NCBI GenBank assembly: GCA_024699645.1
Contig: JAILPE010000107.1
Coordinates: forward strand, 1-52,954
Source: Lachnospiraceae bacterium
GTDB taxonomy: Bacteria; Bacillota; Clostridia; Lachnospirales; Lachnospiraceae
Reading direction: 5' to 3'
Length of the DNA: 52,954 bases
Shown: positions 14,177-52,185 of the stretch, piece by piece
How positions within the stretch are numbered: the stretch's first letter is position 1
Layout of the letters: each line of letters opens with the position of its first letter
Made by a program: the position numbers and the translations under genes
Notes under the pieces: model-generated
The model's input: only the letters and a program-made list of their open reading frames with translations
What the model was told of the DNA's origin: nothing
The model's database searches: none

Positions 14177-14305
14177 GCAAACCGACTGATCCTCAAATAT
14201 CAAAATCCTGTGCAAACCGACTGATCCTCAAATATCATATTCTTATACAGACCGATCAGTCCCCAAACATCCGAATCTTATGCAAAAAGACTGATTATAT
14301 CCTTA
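14177..14305. repeat. 35-bp tandem repeat between rseP and ispG
   Basis: Four diverged units begin at 14177, 14212, 14247 and 14282, exactly 35 bp apart (core gcaaaccgactgatcctcaa). The oldest-looking unit includes the final codons and stop of rseP, suggesting the array arose by duplication of the gene's 3' end. Confidence 0.85.
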
Positions 14306-15585
14306 AAGAACACCAAAACCACCACTATAAGTAACAATATAGCCCCGATTATATTAACGATACCTTCTTTTTCAGGCGGAATCGGCTTACGTCTGATCAC
14401 CTCGATCAGCGCAAACAATATCCTTCCTCCGTCAAGCATCGGTATCGGCAGAAGGTTCATAACTCCAAGATTGGCGCTTATCAATATGATCCAGTTTATA
14501 AGATTCATTATGACTATAAATACGCCCTGATCTTCCGTTGCTTCTATGGTGTCGTCTATTTTTTCGACGATCTTTACGGGACCGCCGAAATCATCTCCGG
14601 TCAGCTTGCCCGTAAATAGGAGCACAAGACTCTTTATCGTCCCGACAATATTGTATTTAAGCTCGTAATACGAATACTTTATAACCGAGAGTCCACTGAC
14701 TTCGGTTCTGTAACTGCTGTTAAACGAAAGTCCGGCATCATAACCCTCTACAGCGATCGGAACAACGGTGTAATCATTTTTTACTCCGCCTCTGTCTACC
14801 GTTACGACTATAGAATCTCCGTTAAGCGGATTGACGCCTATATAGCTGTTGAGCTCGCCTCCCGTTGATATCTTTTCACCGTTCATCGCAACTATAATGT
14901 CATTTTTCCTTATCCCTGCCTTATAAAAAGCTCCGTCTTCACTGACATCCGCTATCTTGGCGGGATTATCATCGATATAATATGTAAATCCGAGCTTATA
15001 AACCTTTCTGTAATCCGGAGTAATAACGGTCGAATATGTTTCTCCGTCCCTCTCATACTCCATCTTGATAGGATCGGCCTGAAGCGGACGATAGCGGAGT
15101 TCCACCGCAAGCTCTCTTCCGAGATTGACCGTCATATCGTCATATTCGGTGATAATGTCTCCCGGACGGATACCTGCCTCATAAGCCGGTCCGTTTTCTG
15201 CCACCCTTGTAACAACAGGTGAATCATATCCGACAAATCCGATAACGATCAGACTGACAAGGAAAGCCAATATAAAATTAAAAACAGGACCTGCGATATA
15301 AACGCAAAACTTTATAAGCGGTTTCTTGGCATTTATAGTTCTCTCGGGATCAACATCCGGATCTGCCGAGGTAGCCATCTGGCACGCGCCGCCGATCGGC
15401 AAAAGTCTTATCGAGAAAAGCGTTTCACCTTTTTTAAAACTGCAAAGCTTCGGTCCAAAGCCGACAAAAAACTGGGGTACTGCTATATTGTACATTTTAC
15501 ATAAAAGAAAATGGCCAAATTCATGAAAAACGATTATCAACCCCAAAAGAAGTATTCCAAATAAAATACTGATCACTATACTCAT
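14278..15585 (-). CDS. rseP: Site-2 membrane metalloprotease RseP/RasP
   Basis: 435 residues. An intramembrane zinc protease that cuts anti-sigma factors and signal peptides. Helix 1 holds the zinc motif HEFGH (~20); a PDZ region follows (EAGIRPGDII and a second KAGIRKNDIIVAMNG); the C-terminal membrane helices carry NLLPIPMLDGGR with the third zinc ligand. The ATG at 15585 has GGAG eight bases upstream; the longer frame to 15633 adds an unlikely N-terminus. Its place after dxr matches the Bacillus dxr-rasP order. Confidence 0.96.
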   Translation of the reverse strand: MSIVISILFGILLLGLIIVFHEFGHFLLCKMYNIAVPQFFVGFGPKLCSFKKGETLFSIRLLPIGGACQMATSADPDVDPERTINAKKPLIKFCVYIAGPVFNFILAFLVSLIVIGFVGYDSPVVTRVAENGPAYEAGIRPGDIITEYDDMTVNLGRELAVELRYRPLQADPIKMEYERDGETYSTVITPDYRKVYKLGFTYYIDDNPAKIADVSEDGAFYKAGIRKNDIIVAMNGEKISTGGELNSYIGVNPLNGDSIVVTVDRGGVKNDYTVVPIAVEGYDAGLSFNSSYRTEVSGLSVIKYSYYELKYNIVGTIKSLVLLFTGKLTGDDFGGPVKIVEKIDDTIEATEDQGVFIVIMNLINWIILISANLGVMNLLPIPMLDGGRILFALIEVIRRKPIPPEKEGIVNIIGAILLLIVVVLVFFKDIISLFA

Positions 15586-15669
15586 CAAAAAAACTCCATG
15601 TATCCGGTTGAATTTAGCAAAAGCTACGGACACTTATCATGTTAAACCAATTCCCGATCCCTAATATCA

Positions 15670-16845
15670 TTAGCATGCGGAAGGATTCTTCATTGAAGAT
15701 ATAAACTTTAAGGAAAGCTCCCTCGTGTTTTCCTTAAGCTCAAATATCTGTTCAAGCGACGGCTCTTTTTCCGCTTTTATCGTCCTCATGCACTCCTCTA
15801 TTATATCATAAATACCGAGGAAACCGATCTTACCTTCAAGAAATGCCGCAACGGCAAATTCATTTGCCGCATTGAAAACCGTACACATCCCGCACCCGTC
15901 TGACGCTGCCGAAAGACCGAGAGGTAAGCCCCTGAGCACTTTGTTGTCAGGTTTCTCAAAATGTATCGCACCGATGTCGGCAAGACTCATTCTCTGTTTT
16001 AAAGGAGATTCAAGCCTTTGCGGATAATAAAGAGCATGTTGGATAGGTATCCTCATATCCGGAGGTGCAATCTGAGCCACGATAGAACCGTCTCTGTATT
16101 CAACGGCGGAATGTATCATACTCTCGGGTTGAACAACAACCTCGATGTTATCCACCGGAACATCAAATAACCAATGTGCTTCCATTACTTCGAGAGCTTT
16201 ATTGACCATTGTAGCCGAGTCGATGGTGATTTTTTTGCCCATCGCCCAGTTCGGATGGCAAAGAGCATCCGATGCTGTCACTTTTTTCAGCTGTTCAACG
16301 GTCATTCCACGGAACGGTCCACCTGAAGCCGTAAGAAGGATATTTGCTATCTCCTCTTTTTTCCCACATTCCAGGCACTGCCATATCGCACAATGCTCGC
16401 TGTCTATGGGCCTGATAAAATGAGATCTGTTCCACTCATGAGAAGTGATAAGATGTCCCGCACATACCATCGTTTCCTTATTGGCCAGTGCAATGTCACA
16501 TCCCGCATCCATAGCCGCAAGAGTCGGTTCTATCCCGATCATTCCGACTATTGCGGTGACCGTGAGTGTTTCACTTCCACCGATAGCGGCTGCTTCACAA
16601 AGTCCGGTCATTCCGGAAGTAACCTTAACATCGACATCACTTAAGCGCAGCTTCAATTCCTTTGCCGCATCCTCATTATACATGCAGCATATTTCAGGTT
16701 TGAACTTTCTTACCTGTTGTTCCATAAGGTCGACGCTGTTGCTTGCTGTCAATGCCCTTACCCTGAATCCGCCGCGTTTTTCGATGATTTCAAGTGTCTG
16801 TGTTCCGATCGAACCCGTTGAACCGAGTATTGCTATATCTCTCAT
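15670..16845 (-). CDS. dxr: 1-deoxy-D-xylulose 5-phosphate reductoisomerase
   Basis: 391 residues, full length. Converts DXP to MEP with NADPH, the first committed MEP step. N-terminal Rossmann motif AILGSTGSIGTQTLE; ANKETMVCAG; catalytic region with IDSEHCAIWQCL and TASGGPFRG; C-terminal PNWAMGKKITIDSATM. The start is set by GAGG upstream of the ATG. It lies between cdsA and rseP as in Bacillus. Confidence 0.97.
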   Translation of the reverse strand: MRDIAILGSTGSIGTQTLEIIEKRGGFRVRALTASNSVDLMEQQVRKFKPEICCMYNEDAAKELKLRLSDVDVKVTSGMTGLCEAAAIGGSETLTVTAIVGMIGIEPTLAAMDAGCDIALANKETMVCAGHLITSHEWNRSHFIRPIDSEHCAIWQCLECGKKEEIANILLTASGGPFRGMTVEQLKKVTASDALCHPNWAMGKKITIDSATMVNKALEVMEAHWLFDVPVDNIEVVVQPESMIHSAVEYRDGSIVAQIAPPDMRIPIQHALYYPQRLESPLKQRMSLADIGAIHFEKPDNKVLRGLPLGLSAASDGCGMCTVFNAANEFAVAAFLEGKIGFLGIYDIIEECMRTIKAEKEPSLEQIFELKENTRELSLKFISSMKNPSAC

Positions 16846-16875
16846 TAACCGTTCCTCTGACTGTATAAATCTATC

Positions 16876-17745
16876 TTAACCGATAAGTTTCAGTAAAAAA
16901 TATATTATCGGTGCCACAAATATCACGCTGTCAAATCTGTCAAGTATCCCACCGTGTCCCGGGATAAGCTTTCCGTAATCTTTGATATCTTTATTTCTTT
17001 TTATCGCAGACGCCGCCATATCTCCTATCATCGAAACAACCGAAGCAGCCGCGCTGACTATTACAAACAGAAGCACAGGATTATCATACACTTCGGAAAG
17101 CTCGGCTTTGAAGATCATCGAGTAAATGAATCCTATAAGCGTTGCGCCTACCACTCCGCCGATGCACCCTTCCAATGTCTTCTTGGGTGAAAGCACGGGC
17201 GCTATCTTATGTTTTCCGATCAGTATACCGGTAAGATATGCCATCGTATCGGCTCCCCACGATGCGATAAATACAAGCCAAACGCTGTATGCACCTCCGT
17301 CTGAGATCCTGAGCTTATATATATATGATATCGTAAGTGCCACATAAAACAATCCGAAGAATACCATTGTTATCTGCTCGGAGTTGTACTTGGGGAAAGT
17401 AAGCACATAAGCAGCAAGCAGAACCACCAAGAAAACGCCTATGAGCACAGCCGGATATCCCCCGACTTCACTGCATTTTTTTATAATCTCAAAATCCTGA
17501 GTGCACTCCATAACGCCAAAATACAGCGCGATCGCAGCAAGGTACCCGACGATCCCCACCGACCTTTTATGTACATCAAATATCCTGTAAAGTTCCATAA
17601 GTCCGATAAGGGTGATTGCAAGTAAAACTCCGAAAAGGTAATATCCGCCAAGCACCATTGAAAGAACCGTGATCGTCATAAGAATGATCGAACTTCTGAA
17701 TCTTATCAAAAAAGAACGCTTTATTCCGCTGTCTTTCTCCTTCAT
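16876..17745 (-). CDS. cdsA: Phosphatidate cytidylyltransferase
   Basis: 289 residues with about eight membrane helices. Makes CDP-diacylglycerol from phosphatidate and CTP for phospholipid synthesis. The C-terminal signature is present: ACSPKKTLEGCIGG-like (VLSPKKTLEGCIGGVVGA) and GDMAASAIKRNKDIKDYGKL followed by PGHGGILDRFDS. The ATG at 17745 has a strong GGAGG five bases upstream; a longer frame beginning at 17850 inside uppS is possible but lacks a ribosome site. Confidence 0.96.
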   Translation of the reverse strand: MKEKDSGIKRSFLIRFRSSIILMTITVLSMVLGGYYLFGVLLAITLIGLMELYRIFDVHKRSVGIVGYLAAIALYFGVMECTQDFEIIKKCSEVGGYPAVLIGVFLVVLLAAYVLTFPKYNSEQITMVFFGLFYVALTISYIYKLRISDGGAYSVWLVFIASWGADTMAYLTGILIGKHKIAPVLSPKKTLEGCIGGVVGATLIGFIYSMIFKAELSEVYDNPVLLFVIVSAAASVVSMIGDMAASAIKRNKDIKDYGKLIPGHGGILDRFDSVIFVAPIIYFLLKLIG

Positions 17746-17821
17746 AAACTCCTCCGTAACATTTATTTCGAAAAGATCATATTCCCCGTTTGTTTCTTCG
17801 CATTTGTTTCTTCGCGCGTCA

Positions 17822-18550
17822 TTATCCGCCGTATCTTCTGTCCCTGCCATTATACCACTCTATAGCTTTTATAAGTTCTTTTTTATCGAAATCCGGCCAC
17901 AGTACGTCGGTGAAATAGAGCTCCGAATATGCCGATTGCCATGGAAGGAAATTGGACAGCCTTATCTCTCCGCTTGTACGTATCACAAGATCGGGATCCG
18001 GCATATCCGACGTATCGAGGTACCCCGAAATAACGTCTTCGCTAATGTCTGCCGCCGTGATCTTTCCGGTATCACGATCCTCAAGTATTTTTCTTACCGC
18101 TCTGACTATCTCGTCCCTTCCGCCGTAGTTAAGAGCCACTGTAAAGCAGAGCCCCGTATTGGCCGAAGATTCATGTGTCAGTTCTTTGATGCTCTCGCGA
18201 AGGTCCTCGTCAAGTCTTGTGATATCACCTATGACCCTGACTCTCATATTGTTTTTTCTGCTTCGTTCAAGACAATTCTTCATATATTTCCTAAGCAGAT
18301 CCATGAGCGTCGCCACTTCACTTTCGGGTCTTTTCCAGTTTTCCGTCGAAAACGCATATACAGTCAGATATTTGATTCCGAGCGACCATGCATCGTCGCA
18401 GATCTGTTCAACAGTCCTGCTCCCCGCCGAATGGCCTGCGCTTCGGGGCAGGAACCTCTTTTTTGCCCATCTGCCGTTTCCGTCCATGATGATTGCCACA
18501 TGTTCGGGTATCTTTTTATCCTCTGACAATTCTGTCTTCTTTTTAGCCAA
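17822..18550 (-). CDS. uppS: Undecaprenyl diphosphate synthase (cis-prenyltransferase)
   Basis: 242 residues from a TTG at 18550, which has AAGGAG six bases upstream. Elongates FPP to C55-PP, the lipid carrier of wall synthesis. Motifs: HVAIIMDGNGRWAKKR (catalytic Asp), GHSAGSRTVEQI, YAFSTENWKRP, ALNYGGRDEI and the C-terminal DLVIRTSGEIRLSNFLPWQSAYSE region. A frame reaching 18730 exists only because it reads through the upstream 33-bp repeats; those residues (SKVSGAASERR and similar) are not family sequence. Confidence 0.96.
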   Translation of the reverse strand: MAKKKTELSEDKKIPEHVAIIMDGNGRWAKKRFLPRSAGHSAGSRTVEQICDDAWSLGIKYLTVYAFSTENWKRPESEVATLMDLLRKYMKNCLERSRKNNMRVRVIGDITRLDEDLRESIKELTHESSANTGLCFTVALNYGGRDEIVRAVRKILEDRDTGKITAADISEDVISGYLDTSDMPDPDLVIRTSGEIRLSNFLPWQSAYSELYFTDVLWPDFDKKELIKAIEWYNGRDRRYGG

Positions 18551-18592
18551 TTGATTCTCCTTCCGTGTCGCATGCGAAAGCTCCCGCATCCC

Positions 18593-18691
18593 GGCACCCG
18601 ATACTTTGCTGCGTCGCTCCGATGCGGCACCCGATACTTTGCCGCGTCGCTCCGATGAGGCAACCGACACTTTGCTGCGTCGGAGCGCTGT
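18593..18691. repeat. 33-bp tandem repeat between frr and uppS
   Basis: Nearly three units start at 18593, 18626 and 18659 (33 bp apart, core ggcacccgatactttgc). The array lies between the terminator after frr and the uppS ribosome site. Confidence 0.9.
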
Positions 18692-18696
18692 TACAC

Positions 18697-18728
18697 AAAA
18701 ACTGGTCGGGAATGAACCACTCCCGACC
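18697..18728 (-). terminator. Rho-independent terminator after frr
   Basis: On the minus strand GGTCGGGA pairs with TCCCGACC across a nine-base loop, followed by AGTTTTTG. It separates pyrH-frr from uppS; since only repeats lie between it and uppS, either it is leaky or a promoter is hidden in the repeats. Confidence 0.75.
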
Positions 18729-18749
18729 ACCTTTATTTACCGCGGGGCA

Positions 18750-19304
18750 TTATACCGTCATGATCTCTTTGCTCTTGCTCTCGATCATCTTGTCTATGTC
18801 TCCGATGTTCTTTTCAGTAACCTTATTGATATCTTCCTCGATCTGCTTTTGAACGTCTTCGGAGATTTCCGATGACTTTCCGAGTTTCTTGGCAAGATCG
18901 TTGGCATCACGTCTTATATTTCTGATCGCAACCTTTGCATCTTCGCCCTTTTTCTTAACGTCTTTAACAAGTTCCTTACGTCTGTCCTCGGTCAACTCGG
19001 GGAAAACAAGTCTGATCACCTTGCCGTCATTTGTGGGATTGATGCCGATCTCTGCCATGTTTATCGCCTTCTCGATCTCTTTGATCATCTTTGCCTCCCA
19101 CGGCTGGATCTGTATTATCCTTGCCTCGGGTACCGATACGTTTGCAACTGCGTTGATGGGTGAAGGAGTTCCGTAATAATCAACCTTGATCTTATCGATC
19201 AAATGGGGATTTGCACGGCCTGCTCTGACCGAAGCATATTCCTCGTTAAGCACATCAATTGTTTTCTTCATCTTTTCTTCGTAAACTTTAAATCTCTCAT
19301 CCAT
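18750..19304 (-). CDS. frr: Ribosome recycling factor
   Basis: 184 residues, standard length. With EF-G it splits post-termination ribosomes. Recognised by the N-terminal helix (VYEEKMKKTIDVLNEEYASV), the hallmark RAGRANPHLIDKIKVDYYG, PWEAKMIKEIEKAI and the C-terminal charged helix bundle. GGAGG lies before the ATG. It follows pyrH, the usual bacterial arrangement. Confidence 0.98.
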   Translation of the reverse strand: MDERFKVYEEKMKKTIDVLNEEYASVRAGRANPHLIDKIKVDYYGTPSPINAVANVSVPEARIIQIQPWEAKMIKEIEKAINMAEIGINPTNDGKVIRLVFPELTEDRRKELVKDVKKKGEDAKVAIRNIRRDANDLAKKLGKSSEISEDVQKQIEEDINKVTEKNIGDIDKMIESKSKEIMTV

Positions 19305-19390
19305 AATTAACCCTCCTCTGTGATCCGAATGATCTTTATATGATCTTTTGATCGGTTTTCCATAATTGATTTATCACTGCCGTATATAAG

Positions 19391-20098
19391 TCATTCGGCG
19401 GTTATCACTGTCCCGGTGTGTTCTCCCGATGCATTCCTGATGATCGAATTCTTTTCATCAAGAGCAAAGAGAACAAGCGGCATCGAATGCTCACTGCAAA
19501 GAACTGCCGATGCCTGATCTATCACTTTGAGACCCTTCGCAATAACCTCTTTGAGTGATATGCTGTCATATTTGACGGCTGATGGATCCACCTTGGGATC
19601 GGCCGAATATACACCATCGATCGTCTTTGCCATAAAGATCGCGTCACACCCAAGCTCGATAGCGCGTATAGCCGCAGGTGTATCTGTCGAAAAGAATGGG
19701 TGCCCCGTTCCTCCCGCAAAGAAAACAACCCGTCCGTTCTTCAGATCTTCCATGACATCATCTTTGTAAAAAAGCTTTGTCACATCGCCACACAAAAACG
19801 GCGTATAAACCTGTGTTGAAACTCCCAATCCCCGAAGTGTTTCGGACATATATATGCAGTTCATGACCGTTGCAAGCATGCCGATCTGGTCTGATCTGAG
19901 ACGGTCGATCCCGCCTCCGGTCCTGCCTCTCCAGAAGTTTCCGCCGCCTATAACGATCGCAACTTCTGTTCCGGACTCAACAACTGTTTTTATCTGCTGT
20001 GCAACCGCCCTGCATGTTCCGTCGTCAAAGCCGTTAGCTTTGTCTCCCGAAAGGGCTTCTCCGCTCAATTTTAGAAGTATTCTTTTATAACGTGCCAT
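19391..20098 (-). CDS. pyrH: UMP kinase
   Basis: 235 residues. Phosphorylates UMP to UDP; hexameric amino-acid-kinase fold. Motifs: RILLKLSGEAL, VAIVIGGGNFWRGR, ADQIGML-like DQIGMLATVMN, GTGHPFFSTDTPAAIRA and KTIDGVYSADPKVD. The ATG at 20098 has GGAG six bases upstream; an ATG four codons earlier is also in frame. In many bacteria rpsB-tsf precede pyrH-frr; here a bactofilin does. Confidence 0.98.
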   Translation of the reverse strand: MARYKRILLKLSGEALSGDKANGFDDGTCRAVAQQIKTVVESGTEVAIVIGGGNFWRGRTGGGIDRLRSDQIGMLATVMNCIYMSETLRGLGVSTQVYTPFLCGDVTKLFYKDDVMEDLKNGRVVFFAGGTGHPFFSTDTPAAIRAIELGCDAIFMAKTIDGVYSADPKVDPSAVKYDSISLKEVIAKGLKVIDQASAVLCSEHSMPLVLFALDEKNSIIRNASGEHTGTVITAE

Positions 20099-20133
20099 GT
20101 TTCTCTCCATCCCGTCAAATCATATGATGTTCA

Positions 20134-20979: not shown

Positions 20980-21021
20980 ATTTGCCTCCTCTTACACAAT
21001 AATTCAATGTAAACAACAATC

Positions 21022-21050: not shown

Positions 21051-21061
21051 CCTTTTATTCT

Positions 21062-23239: not shown

Positions 23240-24439
23240 TCAATGTCTCGGTGAACCGCAATTGCTGCAGAACTTTCCGGTATTGACGGTTCCGCACTGA
23301 CATGTCCATGATCCTGTAGCGGGTGCGGGAGCCGGTGAACCGCAATTACTGCAGAACTTTCCGGTATTGACAGTTCCGCACTGACATGTCCATGATCCTG
23401 CAGCGGGCGCAGCCTGCTGCTGTTGCTGTTGCTGCTGACCCATTGCAAAAAGATTCTGAGCGCTTACTCCGCCTGCCTGCTGAGCCATACCCATGCCCAT
23501 AAAGCCTGTCATTGCGCCTGCCGAATTCTTTGCTGCGTCCTGCATTGCCTGACTCTGTGCTCCGACAAGTGTTGCGGCAGCCATGGTAGGATCGCGGTAG
23601 ATCGCATTTCTCTGTGCCTGACGGATAAGTTCCTCGTCGTCGGGATCCGCATTGATGGAATTGATATTAAATGTATGAAGTGTGATACCACGGTTCTGTG
23701 TCCACTTCTCAACAAGTACTTCACGAAGAGCCTTCTCAAGTTCAAGAGTATGTCCTGCTATTGAACTGTAACGTATTCCCTGATCGGAGATCTTGCTGAA
23801 TGCGGGCTGAAGAGCTGCAAGAAGCTCACTCTTAAGCTGTGCATCGATTTCGGAACGATCATAGGTATTTGAAACGTTTCCGCATACATTGGTATAGAAA
23901 AGGAGCGGATCTGTTATCTTGTAAGAATAGATAGCGTTACATCTCATTCTTATGTCGATATCAAGGCCGATATTTTTATCAACTACTCTGAAAGGAACAG
24001 GGCTGGGAGTTCCAACCTTATTGTCGATGATCTCCTTGGTATTGAAGTAGTAAACTCTCTGATCCTTGCCGGTATCTCCGCCGTACGTGAAACGCTTACC
24101 GAATGTCTTAAAAGATTCGATAATGCTCTTTCCGAAACTTCCGGCAAAAATACTGGGTTCTGAGGATGTATCATATGTAAACTCGCCGGGTTCTGCGCAG
24201 AACTCAACTACCTTACCCTGATCAACTATGATCATGCACTGTCCGTCTGCTACGCAAATACCGCTGCCGTTAGAAATGATGTTATCGCTTCCCTTTGTGT
24301 TCGAAGAACGGGAACCGATCATCTTCTGTCCCTTAACAACAAGGATATCCTTGTCAATTGCCTCACAATAAAAAAATTCTTTCCACTGATCGGCGAGAAC
24401 GCCACCTGCTGCTCCGAGAGCTGCTTTGATAAGTCCCAT
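23240..24439 (-). CDS. SPFH-domain (virion-core-like) protein, YdjI-like, with duplicated zinc ribbon
   Basis: 399 residues. Residues ~1-300 are an SPFH/band-7-like domain of the YdjI type: WKEFFYCEAIDKDILVVKGQKM, IVDQGKVVEFCAEPGEFTYD, RMRCNAIYSYKITDPLLFY, RGITLHTFNINSINADPDDEELI. A Gln/Ala/Met-rich linker follows, then two nearly identical C-terminal zinc ribbons (WTCQCGTVNTGKFCSNCGSP). In Bacillus, YdjI is a membrane-microdomain protein that works with YdjG/H and PspA under envelope stress. First gene of the three-gene operon. Confidence 0.87.
   Translation of the reverse strand: MGLIKAALGAAGGVLADQWKEFFYCEAIDKDILVVKGQKMIGSRSSNTKGSDNIISNGSGICVADGQCMIIVDQGKVVEFCAEPGEFTYDTSSEPSIFAGSFGKSIIESFKTFGKRFTYGGDTGKDQRVYYFNTKEIIDNKVGTPSPVPFRVVDKNIGLDIDIRMRCNAIYSYKITDPLLFYTNVCGNVSNTYDRSEIDAQLKSELLAALQPAFSKISDQGIRYSSIAGHTLELEKALREVLVEKWTQNRGITLHTFNINSINADPDDEELIRQAQRNAIYRDPTMAAATLVGAQSQAMQDAAKNSAGAMTGFMGMGMAQQAGGVSAQNLFAMGQQQQQQQQAAPAAGSWTCQCGTVNTGKFCSNCGSPAPAPATGSWTCQCGTVNTGKFCSNCGSPRH
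23250..23417. repeat. 84-bp in-frame duplication in the SPFH gene
   Basis: Two copies starting at 23250 and 23334 differ at only a few positions and each encode one 28-residue zinc ribbon plus linker, indicating a recent duplication. Confidence 0.95.
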
Positions 24440-28290: not shown

Positions 28291-28409
28291 TCCGACGGAC
28301 CGCATTATCGTCTCTTTACTCGAAATGTATATCACAAATCTTTTTCCGGCGGATCGCGCTATTGTCTTTTCACGGCGGACCGCATTATTGTTCATTATCG
28401 CGGAACGTA
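28291..28409. repeat. Degenerate repeats between divergent promoters
   Basis: Three or four diverged copies of a tccggcggaccgcattattg-like unit with irregular spacing (54 and 26 bp). They lie between the minus-strand lipoprotein promoter and the plus-strand mscS promoter. Confidence 0.6.
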
Positions 28410-33449: not shown

Positions 33450-33590
33450 TCGTACCGATTTTTCTTCGCATGCCGTTTTTCTTCGCGTACCGATTTTCTT
33501 CGCGTATCGGTTTTCTTCGCATGCCGTTTTCCTTCGCATACCGGTTTTCTTCGCATGCCGATTTTCCTTCGCATACCGGATTTCTGCATG
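33450..33590. repeat. 17-bp tandem repeat between trpB and trpA
   Basis: About eight units of a 17-18 bp element (core tcgcataccggttttct). Because the unit is not a multiple of three and lacks stops, long frames stay open on both strands; these are artefacts. The array ends just before the trpA ribosome site. Confidence 0.92.
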
Positions 33591-34881: not shown

Positions 34882-35664
34882 TCACCGAGCCGTATGTACC
34901 GCCGCCATAAAGCGCTCCATCTTCGCCCTGTCCTTAAAGCCGTCCGTCTCGATCCCCGAGCTCACATCAAGCGCATATGGTCTCAGTCTTTCGATCGCAC
35001 GCTCCGCGCTGTCCGCGTCAAGACCGCCCGCAAGAAAATAAGGGCGCCGTACTTCCCCGAGCACGGACCAGTCAAATTCTTTTCCGCTGCCCGCTCCGGA
35101 ATCGAGAAGTATCATATCGGCGGTCGATAAGTTCGCCGATCGCACATCTTCCTCCGATGCTACCTTAAAGGCCTTGATTATACGTATTTTCCCGTGTGTT
35201 TGGTCGCTGCTGTCCTCGCCGGTTTCCCCATCTTCTCGTTCAGTTCTGTTCTCGCAGGATTCGCTTTCTTTCCGGGCCGCTGCGTTATTGCAGTTTTCCC
35301 CGTCTTCCCGAGCGGCTCTTTCCTTGCCCGGATTCCGGTACGCCGCGCCGCAGCCGGCTCCGTTCTCTTCGATGAGTTTTCGAAGTCGGGCCACATAGGC
35401 GTCGTCCTCGCTCCCGTGGAGCTGCGCTATATCGATCGTACCGTCCGCGATGAGGCCTGCTACGACCCCGGGTTCCTCATCAACAAAAACACCGACAACG
35501 CTTATCTCGTGTTTCAGCATTTTTCTGAGCGTTGCCGCCTTCCCGGGATCGACATAACGTTTGCTTTTCTTCGCAAACACGAATCCGGCATAGTCAACAC
35601 ACAGCTCATTGACCGCCGTTATATCTTCCGGGCGTCTGAGCCCGCAGAATTTCACTTTTACCAT
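34882..35664 (-). CDS. trpF: Phosphoribosylanthranilate isomerase with a ~58-residue insertion
   Basis: 260 residues against about 200 usual. N-terminal half has KFCGLRRPEDI (catalytic Cys), YAGFVFAKKSKRYVDP and IAQLHGSED; C-terminal half has MILLDSGAGSGKEFDW (catalytic Asp), YFLAGGLDADS and LDVSSGIETDGFKD. Between KLIEE (~100) and KIRIIKAF (~159) is a low-complexity polar insertion rich in Glu, Arg, Gly, Asn and Cys. All catalytic motifs are intact, so the enzyme is probably active with an extended loop. The ribosome site lies in the last unit of the upstream repeat. Confidence 0.92.
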   Translation of the reverse strand: MVKVKFCGLRRPEDITAVNELCVDYAGFVFAKKSKRYVDPGKAATLRKMLKHEISVVGVFVDEEPGVVAGLIADGTIDIAQLHGSEDDAYVARLRKLIEENGAGCGAAYRNPGKERAAREDGENCNNAAARKESESCENRTEREDGETGEDSSDQTHGKIRIIKAFKVASEEDVRSANLSTADMILLDSGAGSGKEFDWSVLGEVRRPYFLAGGLDADSAERAIERLRPYALDVSSGIETDGFKDRAKMERFMAAVHTAR

Positions 35665-35673: not shown

Positions 35674-35766
35674 ACTTCTCCGGAATCAGACTTTAGGTCT
35701 CCGCGTTACTTCTCCGGAATCAGACTTTAGGTCTCCGCTTTACTTCTCCGAAATCAGACTTTAGAT
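35674..35766. repeat. 34-bp tandem repeat between trpC and trpF
   Basis: Units begin at 35674, 35708 and 35742 (34 bp), core acttctccggaatcagac; the first two are almost identical. The unit nearest trpF supplies its GGAGA ribosome site, so the same candidate site is repeated upstream. Confidence 0.95.
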
Positions 35767-37634: not shown

Positions 37635-37749
37635 AATACTGCTCCTTTCGTTTAATCCCATGTTTTTTGATTAATTACATATTTTTTGTTGCTTAATTTC
37701 GCTGTGTTCCCGACAATTCAGTTTTCGTTCCGGGATGCCTTACAGATCA

Positions 37750-38367: not shown

Positions 38368-38507
38368 TGCTTGCTGGTTTACTTGCTTGTTTCACTTACT
38401 TGTTTCTCTTGATTGTTTTGCTTGCTTGTTTTACTTACTTGTTTCTCTTGATTGTTTTGCTTGCTTGTTTCTCTTGATTGTTTTGCTTGTTCCTTTTGAT
38501 TGTTTTT
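38368..38507. repeat. 13-bp tandem repeat between trpE and trpG
   Basis: About ten 13-bp units alternate between tgcttgcttgttt, tacttacttgttt and ctcttgattgttt, giving higher-order periods of 26 and 39 bp. On the coding strand the array is A-rich and C-poor in structure and would stay unpaired. Confidence 0.92.
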
Positions 38508-40003: not shown

Positions 40004-40024
40004 AACTACCTCCTAAAGATATGT

Positions 40025-40262
40025 CATCTCGCAAACTTTGTTTGCTCGATGTTCGTGCGCTCACCATTCGGTATGAGAGGCTTCGCCTCTCTCTGCGCGA
40101 TGCCTTCAATACTCCTTTGAAAGCAAGCTTTCACGTCGTGTTGCTTCATCTCGCAAACTTTGTTTGCTCGATGTACGTGCGCTCACCATTCGGTACGAGA
40201 GGCTTCGCCTCTCTCTGCGCGATGCCTTCAATACTCCTTTGAAAGCAAGCTTTCACGTCGTA
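40025..40262. repeat. 122-bp hairpin-rich tandem repeat between the T-box and trpE
   Basis: Copy 1 (40025-40146) and copy 2 (from 40147) are nearly identical until about 40255. Each contains at least three palindromes (gcaaactttgtttgc, gagaggcttcgcctctc, gaaagcaagctttc). A further stretch (40268-40300) carries parts in inverted orientation. The whole 315-bp gap 40004-40317 has no gene; it would be a string of hairpins in the read-through trp mRNA. Confidence 0.9.
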
Positions 40263-40317: not shown

Positions 40318-40353
40318 CAAAAAAGTCCTTGACAGACTTAGTCTGTCAAGGAC
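40318..40353 (-). terminator. T-box terminator
   Basis: Perfect 13-bp stem GTCCTTGACAGAC/GTCTGTCAAGGAC with a three-base loop, followed by six T on the minus strand. Confidence 0.95.
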
Positions 40354-40604
40354 GAATATACAAATATAAACTATCCGCGGTACCACCTTGTTTCACGATC
40401 ACTCGTGCGCTCAGCAGGATACTGACATATCCCCGACAAGTAACGTCTGTCCAAACGTCGCAGAATACTCGGGAACCACTCCCTTTGACTGCGCCCTCGG
40501 CGGTCCATTTGACAACTTGTTTCTTACCTGACTCTCAGCATCGCAGGCTCTCTGTAAAGGCATCATCGCCGTTATCTCCGCGTCAACGGTTTGTTTATTA
40601 AATT
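40318..40604 (-). promoter_or_regulatory. Tryptophan T-box riboswitch
   Basis: The leader has the T-box sequence AAGGTGGTACCGCGG (40376-40390 region) that pairs with the uncharged tRNA acceptor end, an upstream stem I, and a terminator downstream. In stem I, CGGCG pairs with CGCCG, and the trinucleotide immediately 5' of that strand is TGG (40505-40507) followed by A: a Trp specifier codon. Uncharged tRNA-Trp would stabilise the antiterminator and switch on trpEGDCFBA. Confidence 0.93.
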
Positions 40605-47096: not shown

Positions 47097-47130
47097 TCTC
47101 ATTCACCTCCGTCGTGCCGTAACATGTGAG

Positions 47131-47643
47131 CTACTCTGTAACTCTCTTTTCGTCAGAGGCCGCTTTTCTTCGTTTTTCGGCTTTTCTTTGGCGAGCTCTC
47201 TCTATGAGTCCGACCGATTCGTCAAAAGCTTCGTCTATATAAAGATCGTCGTCAAGCTTACCTTTTTTTTCGATCTTCTTGATCTCTTCCCAGTTTTGCA
47301 GAACTTCTTCGGTTCCGGCAACCGCTGTCTCTCCAAATACGTGAGGGTGTCTTCGAATCATTTTTTCGGTGATCGCCCTATTCACATCATCGATCGTAAA
47401 AAGGCCCTCCTCCTCCGCGATCCTCGCATGCATCACTACCTGAAACAGGAGGTCTCCGAGTTCTTCCATGAGATTTGAGGCATTACCTGTTTTATCAAGG
47501 ATGTTGATCCCGCAGACAACCTCGGCTGCTTCTTCAATACAGGGTGCTTTTAGAGTTGCATGTGTCTGCTCTCTGTCCCACGGACATCCTCCCTCGCCTC
47601 TCAGGCGTGCCACAACCTCCACAAGATCTTCAAAGCTCTTCAT
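47131..47643 (-). CDS. mazG: MazG-type nucleoside triphosphate pyrophosphohydrolase
   Basis: 170 residues, one MazG domain. Motifs: LRGEGGCPWDREQTHATL, EEAAEVVCGI, EELGDLLFQVVMHARIAEEEG and RRHPHVFGE, the all-alpha NTP-PPase core with metal-binding Glu/Asp. Hydrolyses non-canonical or damaged NTPs. The C-terminus is Arg/Lys/Ala-rich. AAAGGAAAG before the ATG is the end of the upstream repeat array. Confidence 0.93.
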   Translation of the reverse strand: MKSFEDLVEVVARLRGEGGCPWDREQTHATLKAPCIEEAAEVVCGINILDKTGNASNLMEELGDLLFQVVMHARIAEEEGLFTIDDVNRAITEKMIRRHPHVFGETAVAGTEEVLQNWEEIKKIEKKGKLDDDLYIDEAFDESVGLIERARQRKAEKRRKAASDEKRVTE

Positions 47644-47654
47644 TTTGCTTTCCT

Positions 47655-47765
47655 TTCAATACTCCGGATATGACCGCTCTTTCTTTTCTTTCATTACTCC
47701 GGATCCGAATGCTTTTCTTTTATCACTCAGGGTCTGACCGGTTTGCCGCTATAGTTTTGACCTCT
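47655..47765. repeat. Tandem repeat between larC and mazG
   Basis: Three diverged units share actccggat...gaccg...ctttctttt; unit starts at about 47661, 47696 and 47725 (35 and 29 bp). The last one provides the mazG ribosome site. Confidence 0.75.
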
Positions 47766-47771
47766 CCGGGC

Positions 47772-49277
47772 TCACTTACCCGTATAAGCACGTACCGCTT
47801 TTTCGCAAACCTCTTCAAGCGGAACACCCTCCCTGCACGCAATGGCGGCAACGCTTTCATATTCGGGATAAACCTTTTCTTTCCCGCTGTGAGTGCAAAC
47901 CTTTAGATCGACCTCACCATGCTCTGTTGAAACCGTCACTTTTTTTCTCGGAAGCACAGTACGCAGCATCTTTTGCCGCCTGATCCCGATCGTTGTCGTA
48001 TTTTCGAATACTATGTCCTCCATACGGCTGATGATCTCTTCATCACAGATCACCGTCAGAAGGTATGCCGGCCGATTCTTTTTCATATACACCGGTGTGA
48101 AGAAAACATCCCTTGCTCCGTTTTCCATAAGACGTTCGAGAACAAACCCAAGCTGCTCTCCCGTAGAATCGTCAATGTTCGTCTCAAGCTTCCAGATAGT
48201 GTCACTTTCGTTCAAATCCGTGTCCCGGCACGATCCTTTCTCGCTTATTCCCGAATTCTCTGCCAACAATCCTTTCCCGCCTATCCCCGAATTCCCAGCC
48301 AACGATCCGCTTTCAATAATTACCGCTCTTAAAATACTCGGATATTTATATGCCCGCTTTCCAGCACCGAGTCCGACCTTCAAAGAGATAAAGGTCTCGG
48401 GCAGCTTCGTATCGGTCATAACAGCCGCAGCAAACGCCGCACCCGTGGGAGTAATAAGCTCCACAGGTCTCTCGGTCACAGAGATCGGAAGTCTGCAAGC
48501 GGAAGCAATATTCATAACGGCCGGTACCGGTATGGGAAGTATCCCGTGAGCACACCTCACCGTTCCCGTTCCCTCGCATATTTTAGGTATCACGACCTTC
48601 TCAATTCCGAGGTTGTCAAAGCAGACCGCTGCCGCTACAATATCGGCTATCGAATCGAGTGCCCCGACTTCATGGAAATGTACCTCATTCTTGTCTTTTC
48701 CGTGAGCTTTTCCCTCTGCCTCGGCAAGAATGTCAAAAATCTTCCCCGCAAGCTTCCTGGCATTCGGTGTCATTTCCATTCCATCCATGATCCTGTTAAC
48801 ATCTGCGAGATTTCTGTGTTCATGGTGATGATTGTGGTCATGATCATGATGGTCGTGGTCATGATAATGGTCATGGTCGTGGTGGTCGTGATCATGGTCT
48901 TTGTGGTGGTCATGTTCGTAGTCGTCATGATCATGGTGGTGATCGTGATCATGGTGGTGATCGTGATCATGGTGGTGATCGTCATGATCATGGTGGTAAT
49001 CGTGATCATGGTCGTGATCGTCATGTCCGTTTAAATGGCCGTAAAGATACTCCATATCATGATCGTGATTATCATGTTCTTCATCGAGCACCACGTCAAA
49101 ATTACAGCAATCCACCGCATTTTTCATTACTCTTTCGGTTACGATCTTAACACCTTCCCGGCTGAGACCTTCAAGCGCCTTTCTCATAACGCATTCATCG
49201 GCTCCGAGATCGAGGAGCGCACCGACTATCATGTCACCGCTAATTCCGCTTCCGCAATCAAGATAAAGTGTCTTCAT
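47772..49277 (-). CDS. larC: Nickel insertion protein LarC, with long His/Asp repeat
   Basis: 501 residues in one uninterrupted frame. LarC is the CTP-dependent nickel insertase that completes the nickel-pincer cofactor of lactate racemase. N-terminal MKTLYLDCGSGISGDM, GALLDLGADE; then ~90 residues of His/Asp runs (about 70-160), a nickel-binding or storage tail; then HFHEVGALDSIADIV, PVPAVMNIA, ELITPTGAA; and the C-terminal domain with LETNIDDSTGEQLGFVLE and KKNRPAYLLTVIC. A short Gly/Asn/Ser insertion (LAGNSGIGGKG/LAENSGISEKG) is a two-copy repeat. In Lactobacillus the two halves are joined by frameshifting; here no frameshift is needed. ATG at 49277 after AAAGGTG. Confidence 0.95.
   Translation of the reverse strand: MKTLYLDCGSGISGDMIVGALLDLGADECVMRKALEGLSREGVKIVTERVMKNAVDCCNFDVVLDEEHDNHDHDMEYLYGHLNGHDDHDHDHDYHHDHDDHHHDHDHHHDHDHHHDHDDYEHDHHKDHDHDHHDHDHYHDHDHHDHDHNHHHEHRNLADVNRIMDGMEMTPNARKLAGKIFDILAEAEGKAHGKDKNEVHFHEVGALDSIADIVAAAVCFDNLGIEKVVIPKICEGTGTVRCAHGILPIPVPAVMNIASACRLPISVTERPVELITPTGAAFAAAVMTDTKLPETFISLKVGLGAGKRAYKYPSILRAVIIESGSLAGNSGIGGKGLLAENSGISEKGSCRDTDLNESDTIWKLETNIDDSTGEQLGFVLERLMENGARDVFFTPVYMKKNRPAYLLTVICDEEIISRMEDIVFENTTTIGIRRQKMLRTVLPRKKVTVSTEHGEVDLKVCTHSGKEKVYPEYESVAAIACREGVPLEEVCEKAVRAYTGK
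48820..49065. repeat. Coding repeats for the LarC His/Asp tract
   Basis: Simple catgatcatggtggt-like repeats of 6-18 bp, in frame with larC throughout. Not a CRISPR: the units are contiguous without spacers. Confidence 0.95.
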
Positions 49278-49329
49278 GCTTTCACCTTTCTTTCTGCAGG
49301 ACATCCGAATTCGCCCTGCACATATTGTT

Positions 49330-50073
49330 TTATCTGACGGCAAGTCTGTTGATCTGCGCCGCAAGATATCCGGCTCCGTAACCGTTATCTATATTTACAA
49401 CGGCAACTCCGTTCGCGCATGAATTGATCATGGACAAAAGTGCCGACAATCCCTCAAAATTAGCTCCGTACCCCACCGACGTAGGAACTGCTATCACCGG
49501 CACCCGCGCGAGTCCGCCGACAACACTCGCAAGTGCACCTTCCATCCCGGCAATAGCAACAACACAATTAGCTTCACGTATAACGTCAGTCTTAGAGAGA
49601 AGCCTGTGAAGTCCGCTCACCCCGACATCATATATCCTCTCAACTCTGCACCCGAAGAATTCTGCCGTCTGCGCCGCCTCTTCGGCGACAGGCACATCGG
49701 AAGTCCCACCGCAGCAGATCGCGATCATTCCCCCCGCTTTCAAGGGCTTTCCTGCAGTGATCAAACGACTTACAGGGTCGTACACGGCAGCGCTCACTTC
49801 TTCACGAACGATCTCATATTGATGTTTGTTTGCGCGCGTTCCGAGAACACGTCCTTCACTGTCAAAAAGACGTTTAAATATACTCACAAGATGTTCGTCA
49901 AGCTTCCCTTCACAATACACAACCTCCGGAAACCCGCTTCTCTCGCTTCTTCCCGTATCAAGCTTTGCAAATCCGAGGTCCGCATAAGAGCCGCTTTTTA
50001 AGGCCTTTTCGGCATCCGAAACGCTCATCTCTTTGTTCGCAACTTTTTCAAGAATTTCTTCTATTCCTGTCAT
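49330..50073 (-). CDS. larB: Nickel-pincer cofactor biosynthesis protein LarB
   Basis: 247 residues. LarB carboxylates and hydrolyses nicotinic acid adenine dinucleotide, the first cofactor step. AIR-carboxylase-like core: GTRANKHQYEIVREE, AICCGGTSDVPVAEEAAQTAEFFG, YDVGVSGLHRLLS, VAIAGMEGALASVVGGL, PVIAVPTSVGYGANFEGLSALLSMINSCANGVAVVNIDNGYGAGYLAA. GGGAGAG precedes the ATG. larE and a larA homologue are not in the window. Confidence 0.96.
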   Translation of the reverse strand: MTGIEEILEKVANKEMSVSDAEKALKSGSYADLGFAKLDTGRSERSGFPEVVYCEGKLDEHLVSIFKRLFDSEGRVLGTRANKHQYEIVREEVSAAVYDPVSRLITAGKPLKAGGMIAICCGGTSDVPVAEEAAQTAEFFGCRVERIYDVGVSGLHRLLSKTDVIREANCVVAIAGMEGALASVVGGLARVPVIAVPTSVGYGANFEGLSALLSMINSCANGVAVVNIDNGYGAGYLAAQINRLAVR

Positions 50074-50110
50074 TATCTCTCCCGATAAAATTATTGTTTA
50101 AATCTTTCAC

Positions 50111-50136
50111 GATACCCACTTAAAGAAGTGAGTATC
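50111..50136 (-). promoter_or_regulatory. Hairpin in the larB leader
   Basis: GATACTCACTT pairs with AAGTGGGTATC (one G-T pair) around a four-base loop, 40 bp before larB. No T tract follows, so it is not a terminator. Confidence 0.5.
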
Positions 50137-50169
50137 TTCTCTTACCGAAATAAAGCCCGCTTCAGATTC

Positions 50170-50179
50170 AGTATAGCAT
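50170..50179 (-). promoter_or_regulatory. Extended -10 promoter of larB
   Basis: TATACT (50170-50175) preceded by TGC, an extended -10; no good -35 is visible. Confidence 0.5.
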
Positions 50180-50228
50180 ATCATCGATTTGAAAAACAGC
50201 TTACAAGAAAAGATATGTCCGTATACGT

Positions 50229-50260
50229 GAAAAGACCGAACATGTCGGTCTTTTCTTTAT
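50229..50260. terminator. Bidirectional terminator between the membrane-protein genes and larB
   Basis: Perfect 11-bp stem GAAAAGACCGA/TCGGTCTTTTC with a five-base loop; T-rich on the 3' side in both directions. It ends the minus-strand transcript of the two membrane-protein genes. The rest of the gap 50256-50403 holds another small hairpin (near 50280-50300) and no gene. Confidence 0.75.
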
Positions 50261-50403
50261 TATCCGTGTCTCTGACTGCTCCCACAGGCAAGCCTATGGG
50301 GTTTCGCCGAGAATTTATAACGTGTATTTATACTTTGTTACGCCAAGCCTCACATGATCGTGAGTACAACCGTGCGGCCGTTGATCATAAAAAGCTTCCT
50401 CTG

Positions 50404-50745
50404 TCATTCTTTCTCAAGCTCGGCTTCCTTAGCTCGGGTTGTTCTGCCGAGTGACTTCTTTACTACTCCCTTTGGATCTGCGATAAGAAGTCTGACTACC
50501 CATATGACCAGTCCGAGTGCAACAACCGAAAGTCCAAGGAATGAATCGTTGAGCATATCGACAGGTTCGGGTGTAAAGTAAGCTGCTTCAAGCTCGATAT
50601 ACTCTGCGATCGCATCAACAAACCACATGAGGGAAGCTCCCCAATACATAAGTGCGAGGCTTCCGAGTCTCATATCATCATTTTCACGTTTATACCATTT
50701 AACCGTGACAGCAACAGCGGCAAAAACGCTTATAAGCAATGTCAT
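50404..50745 (-). CDS. Small membrane protein, unknown function
   Basis: 113 residues with about three membrane helices (LLISVFAAVAVTVKWY, SLALMYWGASLMWFVDAIAEYI, LGLSVVALGLVIWVVRLLI) and a charged C-terminal tail (GRTTRAKEAELEKE). No family recognised with certainty. It lies 22 bp after another small membrane protein and shares its structured leader. GGGAGG precedes the ATG. Confidence 0.7.
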   Translation of the reverse strand: MTLLISVFAAVAVTVKWYKRENDDMRLGSLALMYWGASLMWFVDAIAEYIELEAAYFTPEPVDMLNDSFLGLSVVALGLVIWVVRLLIADPKGVVKKSLGRTTRAKEAELEKE

Positions 50746-50767
50746 AAATGTACCCTCCCATTATTAT

Positions 50768-51187
50768 TTATTTTCTGTCTTTGATAATTGCTTCCGTCTG
50801 TAATCCTTTTAATGCGGGACGTCCTGCAATATATAACGCAGTCTTGCTCATAACAAACCAAACACCGGTCACAAGCGCAGCCATCCCGACTCCTACCGTG
50901 CCGATTTCAGTCAGCATCTCCGCCGCATCGGCAGCGTCGTTCATCGCTGTGAGGAAGGGGAACCACGGAACAACCTCTCCGTGCCAAACATGCTCAAACG
51001 CAAGAAGAGCACTTCCTCCGAAAAGAAGCTTTGAAAGCCATCCGAGTCTCGTCGACAACGGGATCAAAGGCTTCTCGACATTTGAAGTATTTCCCTTTGC
51101 CTCAGCAAGTTTTTCCTTCTTTGCCACTTTTTTTTCTATTACCTTAACTACGATTGCCTCTGCCACAGATACCGTAAAACAAGCCAT
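50768..51187 (-). CDS. Small membrane protein, unknown function
   Basis: 139 residues. A Lys-rich amphipathic N-terminal segment (IEKKVAKKEKLAEAKG), then hydrophobic stretches LGWLSKLLFGGSALLAFEHVWHG, EMLTEIGTVGVGMAALVTGVWFVMS. The motif EHVWHGEVVPWFPFL contains two His in or near the membrane. Not recognised. AGGAGG precedes the ATG; first gene of a two-gene unit. Confidence 0.7.
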   Translation of the reverse strand: MACFTVSVAEAIVVKVIEKKVAKKEKLAEAKGNTSNVEKPLIPLSTRLGWLSKLLFGGSALLAFEHVWHGEVVPWFPFLTAMNDAADAAEMLTEIGTVGVGMAALVTGVWFVMSKTALYIAGRPALKGLQTEAIIKDRK

Positions 51188-51223
51188 GTTCGTTTCCTCC
51201 TTTTAACGTCCATACCACAAGAT

Positions 51224-51281
51224 TCAGTGATTCGACCGATACCCGGTATCGGATCTTCACCGATTACAGTAAAATCACTGA
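51224..51281 (-). promoter_or_regulatory. Structured 5' leader of the membrane-protein operon
   Basis: Nested stems: outer TCAGTGATT/AATCACTGA (51273-51281 with 51224-51232) and inner CCGATACC/GGTATCGG (51236-51252). It fits between the candidate promoter and the ribosome site. It does not match a riboswitch class I can name; the inner palindrome could also be an operator. Confidence 0.55.
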
Positions 51282-51291
51282 CATCTAATTT

Positions 51292-51320
51292 AACATATAT
51301 ACGTTCGCGTAACACATCAA
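51292..51320 (-). promoter_or_regulatory. Candidate promoter of the membrane-protein operon
   Basis: TTGATG (51315-51320), 17 bp, TATGTT (51292-51297), placing the start just before the structured leader. Better TTGACA boxes nearby lack a matching -10. Confidence 0.4.
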
Positions 51321-51352
51321 TATCCGCTGATGCACTTGTCAATTATTGTCAA

Positions 51353-52027
51353 TCATCGATCCGATGAAGCAACCCCTGTGATCAGTTTCCTTATATCATC
51401 AGCCGTTTTGGCTATAAGCGTTGCACCCGCTCTTTTCAGTTCCTCTTCACTTCCGTAGCCGTATAAAACTCCTACCGAATCAACCCCGACCTCTACGGCC
51501 GCCTCGATATCGTAAAAGCGGTCTCCGACCATTACGATGTCCTTTCGGTCTTCGTCCGTAAGTCCGAGGTAGTCCATGGCTTCATGTATAAGCCTTGCTT
51601 TGCTCGGGTTTTTGTCTTCCTTTGAAGGTCCGACGATCTCTTCGAAACACTCTTTGATCCCGTTGTTCCCGGCTACGACCTCGGCGAGGACTTTGGGCTT
51701 CGAGGTTACCATCATAAGCGTACAGCCGCCGGCTTTGAGGCTCTCGAGCATTTCCTTGACTCCGTCGTAAAGAGGCGCTTTAAAGATACCCTCTTTTTCG
51801 TAGTGCGCTCTGTAATACTTGATCGCATCCATGCACTGTTCCTCGTTCATTCCGTAACGGTCATGGAACGATACATAAAGAGGGGGACCGATGAACTTCT
51901 TGAGGTTCTCATAGTCATCTTCTACCCCGAACTTTTCGAGTGCTTTACGGGCCGATTCGATGATCCCGAACTCGGACTGCGTGAGCGTCCCGTCAAGATC
52001 GAAAAACACATATTTATACTTGGACAT
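51353..52027 (-). CDS. HAD-family phosphatase, phosphoglycolate-phosphatase-like
   Basis: 224 residues. HAD motifs: FFDLDGTLTQSEFG (nucleophile and acid Asp), LMMVTSKPK (motif II), KEDKNPSKARLI (motif III Lys) and IVMVGDRFYDIEAAVEVGVDSVGVLYGYGSEEEL (motif IV). The helical cap resembles Gph/PgmB-type enzymes; the substrate is not determined. AAGGA precedes the ATG. Confidence 0.9.
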   Translation of the reverse strand: MSKYKYVFFDLDGTLTQSEFGIIESARKALEKFGVEDDYENLKKFIGPPLYVSFHDRYGMNEEQCMDAIKYYRAHYEKEGIFKAPLYDGVKEMLESLKAGGCTLMMVTSKPKVLAEVVAGNNGIKECFEEIVGPSKEDKNPSKARLIHEAMDYLGLTDEDRKDIVMVGDRFYDIEAAVEVGVDSVGVLYGYGSEEELKRAGATLIAKTADDIRKLITGVASSDR

Positions 52028-52115
52028 CTGATATTTCCTTACGCCGAATGACCGTTACCCGGGCATCACATCGGCACCTTTCATACGTATTTTTATCATT
52101 TTCCATCCCTGCGAA

Positions 52116-52185
52116 GTACAAAGGTCTCTACCTTTCCTTTCGTCCCGTAAGCATGAAGATTTCTACCTGTCCTTCCGTCCGAACA
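52116..52185. repeat. 35-bp duplication of the DUF362 gene's 3' end
   Basis: Two units starting at 52116 and 52151 (35 bp apart). The second spans the last codons (GRKDR) and stop of the DUF362 gene; the first is a downstream copy that still reads GRKER-stop. Confidence 0.8.

Follow-up and report, generated by a model that had tools for sequence, protein, structure and literature searches.

According to the published description, Borg genomes carry many tandem-repeat arrays, each unique to its locus, and such arrays are rare in host genomes (Schoelmerich et al. 2023, PMC9879509). In that description, genic units were divisible by three and intergenic units mostly were not, some arrays began in gene ends, the coding strand of the repeats was A-rich and T-poor, and the repeats were seldom conserved between close relatives. 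The counting rule used there accepted perfect repeats with at least three units and at least 50 nt, and it gave an average of 46 arrays per 829 kb (PMC9879509). In the present study, we analyzed tandem repeats in a 52,954-nt stretch of Lachnospiraceae DNA (the window) and in a sample of the genome to which it belongs (G000). The host is a gut or rumen bacterium. The two sets of arrays were alike in several respects: the G000 arrays were also locus-unique (5 of 93 matched elsewhere in the sample), their periods were divisible by three in 33/36 arrays wholly inside genes and in 16/54 arrays not classed as coding, and they too crossed gene ends, were A-rich and T-poor, and were rarely conserved in relatives. 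However, the perfect-repeat rule yielded 2 arrays in the 533-kb G000 sample, and the copies were diverged and few (median copy number 2.6) and lay on a bacterial chromosome.

Bacterial minisatellites or VNTRs are likewise scattered over unrelated loci, each being a tandem array of 10-100-bp units whose copy number differs between lineages. The G000 arrays were head-to-tail units of about 10-100 bp with few exceptions, such as a 122-bp unit, but they were denser than in most sampled relatives. MIRUs are intergenic or intercistronic repeats, sometimes tandem, with one sequence family across loci. Palindromic-unit (BIME) repeats are intergenic or intercistronic and sometimes tandem (PMC2884548). 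Many of the G000 arrays were likewise intergenic or intercistronic, but the single family shared across loci in MIRU and BIME repeats had no counterpart among them. No description of such arrays in Lachnospiraceae or Butyrivibrio was found in the searched literature, the coverage of which leaves out most subscription journals.

An initial annotation had named arrays in many intercistronic gaps of the window, and these arrays exist. Arrays were called with TRF, and gene names were verified against NCBIfam and Pfam. The rseP/ispG array (14178..14295, minus strand; 35 bp, 3.4 copies) spanned the rseP stop and was absent from the orthologous junctions of 6/6 relatives. The frr/uppS array (18592..18682, minus strand; 33 bp, 2.8 copies) was located downstream of a terminator-like hairpin and T run. 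The hairpin was kept in relatives, as judged by eye, and the array was found in 0/4 of them, with gaps of 70-143 bp vs 199 bp here. Upstream of mscS, an array without assigned strand (28342..28391; 26 bp, 2.0 copies) was called in a divergent gap, which, taken whole, gave its strongest self-match at lag 54, above 500/500 shuffles. Two of the named repeats, in the larC/mazG gap (47644..47771, minus strand) and in the DUF362/HAD gap with the DUF362 gene end (52028..52200, minus strand), were degenerate and received no TRF call even with the score lowered to 30; each showed a lag of 35 above 500/500 dinucleotide shuffles in an ungapped self-match test. Within genes, arrays with periods divisible by three were called in an SPFH-domain gene (23249..23407, minus strand; 84 bp, 1.9 copies) and in larC (48233..48308, minus strand; 36 bp, 2.1 copies). 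No Rfam match was obtained across the window at the gathering threshold.

To place these arrays in a genomic context, we sampled 533 kb of G000, representing 25% of the genome and 41 of 123 contigs, with a maximum of 20 kb each except for the window; contig C41 was excluded from the counts. Genes were called with a home-made caller, which chose starts by SD strength. TRF called 93 arrays in the sample and 0 in one dinucleotide-shuffled version of it; thus, chance was ruled out. Periods spanned 9 to 122 bp. Density was 71 arrays per 100 kb of noncoding DNA vs 8.5 per 100 kb of coding DNA. In a TRF-free test, 49/227 gaps in G000 were self-repeating, compared with 25/365 summed over nine other genomes.

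The load was uneven among relatives. G000 carried 174 arrays per Mb vs 30-127 in 12/14 other genomes, and the exceptions were G017 (233) and G027 (179). Arrays occupied 7.7% of noncoding DNA in G000, 0-3.7% in 13/14 other genomes, and 9.5% in the congener G017. The stretch of G017 syntenic to the window contained no array, and locally high loads were seen in other places as well: G011 had 2 arrays within 1.4 kb of noncoding DNA, and 5/64 named loci exceeded a load of 10%. The uneven load suggested a raised tandem-duplication rate in this lineage, a claim for which the well-sampled genomes are two, G000 and G017, the remaining samples being thin. Because G023, the sister of G017, has a low load, a rate change and a slower loss cannot be distinguished.

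The initial annotation had described the unit sequences as unrelated to each other, and the near-absence of matches elsewhere in the sample bore this out. The same result weighs against the view that the arrays belong to a dispersed family of mobile or palindromic elements (MIRU-, BIME-, or RIME-like) that inserted between cistrons. Such a family would agree with the location of arrays in operon gaps, with the ACCTCAGAGGT motif common to arrays at two named loci (L065 and L069), and with the folding of 14/31 co-directional arrays at z < -2 (40 mononucleotide shuffles each), although repetition by itself can depress a shuffled-fold z. However, the 122-bp unit was confined to a single locus genome-wide, and arrays were mostly missing in relatives. 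A dispersed element was therefore rejected, largely on unit unrelatedness, and we regard it as very improbable. An assembly artefact also had to be considered, since the metagenome bin is fragmented (123 contigs), has 4.53% contamination, and carries a second trp operon with about 83% identity. Within arrays not classed as coding, however, copies matched at a median of 90.5%, and such differences between copies would not be produced by joining identical reads. The trpC/trpF array also recurred in contig C41, and the biases in frame and at starts and stops described below require biology, so that an artefact is scarcely credible.

We then analyzed array placement. The suggestion of a genome-wide process duplicating gene junctions held for its genome-wide reach and locus-specific units, but not for the targeting of junctions. 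Co-directional gaps contained 31/44 gap arrays vs 33.8 expected from their share of bases (p = 0.37; 10 contig-edge and 39 coding arrays were left out), and the per-base array frequency in divergent and convergent gaps equaled that in co-directional gaps. A proposed clustering of periods near 33-35 bp was likewise not sustained: 8/54 arrays not classed as coding fell there, where a log-normal fit predicted 4.4 (p = 0.08). A sharp preferred period was rejected for the same 54 arrays (best 3-bp bin, p = 0.69), and no helix phasing was detected at periods of 10.2, 10.5, or 10.8 in the arrays of G000 and G017 combined (Rayleigh p 0.48-0.94).

The annotation had further raised the possibility that the arrays buffer or tune translational coupling; in that case, they would serve as regulatory spacers between operon genes. 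Consistent with this, the mRNA strand of arrays in co-directional gaps was rich in A and G and poor in T (A.347 and T.194 vs.329 and.267 in the remaining gap DNA), SD-like words were more frequent in array DNA (GGAG, 8.3 vs 4.0 per kb), and trpB and trpA, which overlap in 9/13 relatives, are 174 bp apart here. Base composition alone, however, predicted about 7.1 vs 4.5 GGAG per kb, indicating that most of the SD excess is compositional, and multiplication of SD motifs was rejected. Besides the equal density in divergent and convergent gaps, arrays were found in 1/40 orthologous comparisons, 0/31 co-directional arrays overlapped the called downstream start, and arrays crossing gene ends avoided starts, as described below. 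A role in coupling is not supported by these counts and appears unlikely. Some arrays had also been said to include the upstream stop or the downstream ribosome site. The former applied to rseP/ispG and, by eye in the printed sequence, to DUF362/HAD. The latter is, within the window, at most possible at trpC/trpF, where the final unit stops 9 nt short of the downstream start.

Gene boundaries revealed a clear asymmetry. Arrays crossing gene ends involved stops rather than starts at 16:1 (p = 0.0003), a ratio that the choice of starts by SD strength may bias. Together with the excess of in-gene periods divisible by three, this asymmetry suggested that purifying selection is the cause of the frame and stop/start biases.

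The trp operon, on the minus strand, carried several arrays. In the trpB/trpA array (33453..33585), a 17-bp unit was organized in a 34-bp higher-order unit (TRF periods of 17, 34, and 51 bp). The flanks of this junction were shared with G002, in which the gap measured 72 bp and contained two imperfect half-units; the difference from the 174-bp gap here was 102 bp, equal to 3x34 or 6x17 bp. The G002 site is apparently a single-copy precursor of the array; copies may instead have been lost in G002, and the grouping of G002 with G000 had a support of only 0.41. The trpC/trpF array (35674..35764; 34 bp, 2.7 copies) had a related 34-bp array with 4.2 copies in contig C41, a between-lineage difference. 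Within trpF, a stretch with a degenerate 36-bp period (35194..35352) contained an in-frame insert of about 50 aa relative to G023 in an alignment, and its lag of 36 exceeded 1000/1000 codon shuffles. A short array was called at trpG/trpD (37652..37688; 19 bp, 1.9 copies). The trpE/trpG array (38370..38506) had nested periods of 13, 26, and 39 bp and was found in 0/7 relatives, with gaps of -4 to 20 bp vs 208 bp here. The trp leader array (40024..40261; 122 bp, 2.0 copies) lay between the T-box leader and trpE, an interval of 306 bp here vs 82 bp in G023; in a whole-genome search, its unit matched its own locus only.

Collectively, we consider it probable (about 0.75) that the arrays are locus-specific minisatellites derived from recurrent small tandem duplications that were then filtered by selection. 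Such duplications would arise recurrently throughout the genome, and the most likely mechanism is slipped-strand copying or template switching at short imperfect repeats. The genome-wide reach of the process and the locus specificity of the units are consistent with slippage, which the annotation had also offered. Once formed, arrays would expand, contract, and decay. Inside genes, frame-preserving units would survive; duplications crossing a stop would be tolerated because the first stop still terminates the protein, and those of starts would be purged. The enrichment in gene gaps would reflect tolerance of arrays there rather than targeting of the gaps.

End-joining of staggered breaks, by fill-in and ligation, would likewise yield short tandem duplications. 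As Ku was not found in G000 or in 15 other genomes of the genus (G017 and G023 outside that set), and occurred only in G027, from another family, among 25 genomes searched, this route is quite improbable as the source of the duplications in place of slippage, even though Ku-independent end-joining is compatible with the data. A low-fidelity replication background, as suggested by the annotation, may still play a part; among its possible causes, loss of MutS1, a MutS2-like protein, or RecJ was rejected, since G000 encodes all of them. G000, G002, and G011 had seemed to be short of MutS-like paralogues, but this idea was dropped because the low-load G023 gave the same three matches; G017 and G023 were searched with the MutS_V domain only. 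Overall, no repair-gene difference was found in the MutS-type, RecJ, and Ku searches. Tentatively, and with somewhat more doubt than belief, we propose a heritable tandem-duplication mutator in this lineage, gained or lost between sisters (G017 high, G023 low), that would rewrite gaps and add frame-preserving protein inserts, as in TrpF, and would be a bacterial chromosomal counterpart of Borg repeats.

Near relatives with a several-fold different minisatellite load represent a natural system, and because they differ in load, the cause of the bacterial tandem-duplication rate could be mapped by comparison. The results also suggest a simple rule, in which tandem duplications pass the 3' ends of genes and are largely barred from the 5' ends. 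The intergenic repeats look like mutational leftovers rather than switches for neighboring genes, and repeated gene junctions should not be taken as regulatory elements.

Nine tandem-repeat arrays, mostly at gene junctions, had been named in the window by the initial annotation, and all of them were recovered. Seven were found by TRF, and those at larC/mazG and DUF362/HAD, which fell below TRF detection in the window because their copies were too degenerate, were detected by self-match at lag 35, exceeding all 500 shuffles in each case. The gene names in the window were checked. The 17-bp unit at trpB/trpA was found to be half of a 34-bp higher-order unit. Upstream of trpE, a T-box leader (RF00230) was located at 40345-40595 on the minus strand (90.3 bits, E 5e-20; slightly below the gathering score of 93). 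The 122-bp trp-leader repeat lay between this leader and trpE, and thus outside the T-box match proper. We also observed an SPFH-domain gene whose end carries an almost perfect 84-bp duplication (23249-23407) and a repetitive stretch, His/Asp-rich by eye, within the LarC (nickel insertion) gene (48815-49022).

The bin of the window (G000), in which the window forms contig C71, comprised 2.13 Mb in 123 contigs and was 93.0% complete and 4.5% contaminated. Among the best 80 of 586 named loci in a trpB search, the nearest were mostly rumen or gut bins labelled Clostridia, Clostridiales or Lachnospiraceae, and Butyrivibrio sp. NC2007 was also among the closest. To quantify array load, we sampled the window and the first 20 kb at most of contigs 1-20, 61-70 and 72-81 (533 kb, 25% of the bin; 424 genes and 85.7% coding by a small gene caller). 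With arrays defined by a TRF score of 50 and a period of at least 8 after collapsing, 93 arrays were found, and the same measure gave 0 in one dinucleotide shuffle of the sample. Of the noncoding bases, 7.7% lay in arrays, compared with 0.8% of the coding bases. Two contig ends (L150 on C64 and L156 on C70) were dense in arrays, with 27 bp common to two arrays; the assembly may break at such repeats.

Across 14 other genomes, the noncoding share in arrays was 9.5% in G017, 3.7% in G014, 3.3% in G025, 1.7% in G027 and G028, 1.6% in G031 and G040, 1.1% in G023, and 0-0.5% in G006, G009, G022, G024, G034 and G037. The contrast with G000 was weaker by arrays per Mb (G000 174, G017 233, G027 179, the other twelve 30-127) than by noncoding share. 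Thin samples gave 3.5% of 5.9 kb noncoding in G002, 20.8% of 1.4 kb in G011 and 5.4% of 0.8 kb in G018; no arrays were found in those of G004, G015, G005 and G020, nor in a 10.7-kb G017 piece syntenic to the window. In the named trpB loci (best 80 of 586, two sharing contigs with the G017 and G014 stretches), arrays made up 2.0% of pooled noncoding DNA. For the 64 of these loci that reached 10 kb, the median share was 0, versus 5.7% in 22 length-matched stretches of G000 (p 9e-6); five of the 64 exceeded 10%, indicating that repeat-rich stretches also occur in other lineages. A TRF-free test compared the best ungapped self-match of gaps of 60-400 bp with 60 shuffles, leaving out G022, G024, G027 and G037. 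Self-repeating gaps numbered 49/227 in G000, 10/32 in G017, 4/25 in G002, 27/257 among the named-locus gaps covered (loci from the best 80 of 586), and 25/365 in G023, G014, G006, G009, G025, G028, G034, G031 and G040 summed. These results demonstrated a real, dense minisatellite set in G000, unevenly spread among relatives.

A process aimed at gene junctions with periods near 33-35 bp, as initially proposed, was not borne out. The 44 arrays in gaps between called genes of the G000 sample were divided into 31 co-directional, 10 divergent and 3 convergent, and the co-directional count did not differ from the 33.8 predicted by base share (p=0.37). Among the 54 arrays outside the coding class, periods spanned 11-122 bp and fell within 18-56 in 47, with no significant peak at 33-35. 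The suggested translational-coupling or regulatory role likewise found little support.

The arrays carried an apparent footprint of selection. The period was divisible by three in 33 of the 36 arrays wholly within genes, and in 16 of the 54 not classed as coding. In G000, 16 arrays crossed a stop versus 1 a start (p=0.0003), although the reliance of the start calls on SD strength may bias the comparison. Stop:start crossings were 1:0 in G017, 7:1 in other congeners (p 0.07), 6:0 in other families (p 0.03) and 9:4 at named loci (best 80 of 586; p 0.27). Since these sets, among which the named loci overlap slightly with the others, combined to 23:5, the rule may be general beyond G000. Random placement in co-directional gaps predicted about 9 overlaps at each gene end; stops were overlapped by 11 of the 31 co-directional arrays, about as expected, and starts by none, so the bias is an absence at starts rather than an excess at stops. 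A few arrays finished 2, 9, 9 and 12 nt from a start, and some of those ending near a start held an SD-like word in the last unit, indicating that protection of the SD itself is incomplete.

TrpF was 260 aa long in the window versus 209 in G023 and 229 on contig C41 of the same bin. Alignment assigned the excess mainly to one in-frame insert (within 35194-35352, minus strand), which adds about 50 aa compared with G023 and has a degenerate 36-bp period. The self-match of its DNA at lag 36, equal to twelve codons, exceeded all 1000 codon shuffles. The insert is the coding counterpart of the gap arrays.

At five named junctions, TRF at score 40 found arrays in only 1 of 40 comparisons with relatives (trpE/trpG 0/7, trpC/trpF 1/10, trpB/trpA 0/13, frr/uppS 0/4, rseP/ispG 0/6). 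The single positive was C41, which carried a related 34-bp unit in 4.2 copies versus 2.7 in the window. The trp operon on C41 is the second one in this bin, with a nucleotide identity of about 83%, suggesting that the bin is mixed. Relatives had arrays of their own at other junctions within these regions (G014 trpG/trpD, SRR15510239 trpD/trpC, G002 uppS/cdsA). The trpB and trpA genes overlapped (-8) in nine relatives and were separated by 57 bp in G017 and G023 and by 154 bp in G011. In G002, the gap was 72 bp, with flanks matching the window and two imperfect half-units mid-gap, and the window gap was longer by 102 bp, exactly three 34-bp units. This arrangement fits an array that would have been born from a weak pre-existing repeat, although copies may instead have been lost in G002.

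The closest description found was that of Borg tandem repeats. As described in PMC9879509, these resemble the G000 arrays in several respects: units are unique to a locus, genic units preserve the reading frame, arrays occur at the ends of genes, and the coding strand is enriched in A and depleted in T; however, Borg arrays are perfect and those of G000 diverged, and only two arrays in the 533-kb sample followed the Borg rule. For E. coli, another source (PMC2884548) lists minisatellites as 18 of 1,037 variable loci and ascribes to slippage those variable segments with short flanking repeats (10-18%). By eye, a palindromic motif, ACCTCAGAGGT, was common to arrays at several loci (L065 and L069); this is a dispersed element, unlike the locus-specific units of the window.

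In a tree built from up to seven proteins, G017 (high load) grouped with G023 (low load) at a support of 0.999, and G000 with G002 at only 0.41. As the former are sisters, array load seems to change between sister genomes. MutS1, RecJ and a MutS2-like protein, named by length and a partial match rather than by a MutS2 model, were present in G000, and a search of G000 for Ku found none. Collectively, the G000 arrays are best read as the outcome of raised tandem duplication, which would then have been filtered by selection.
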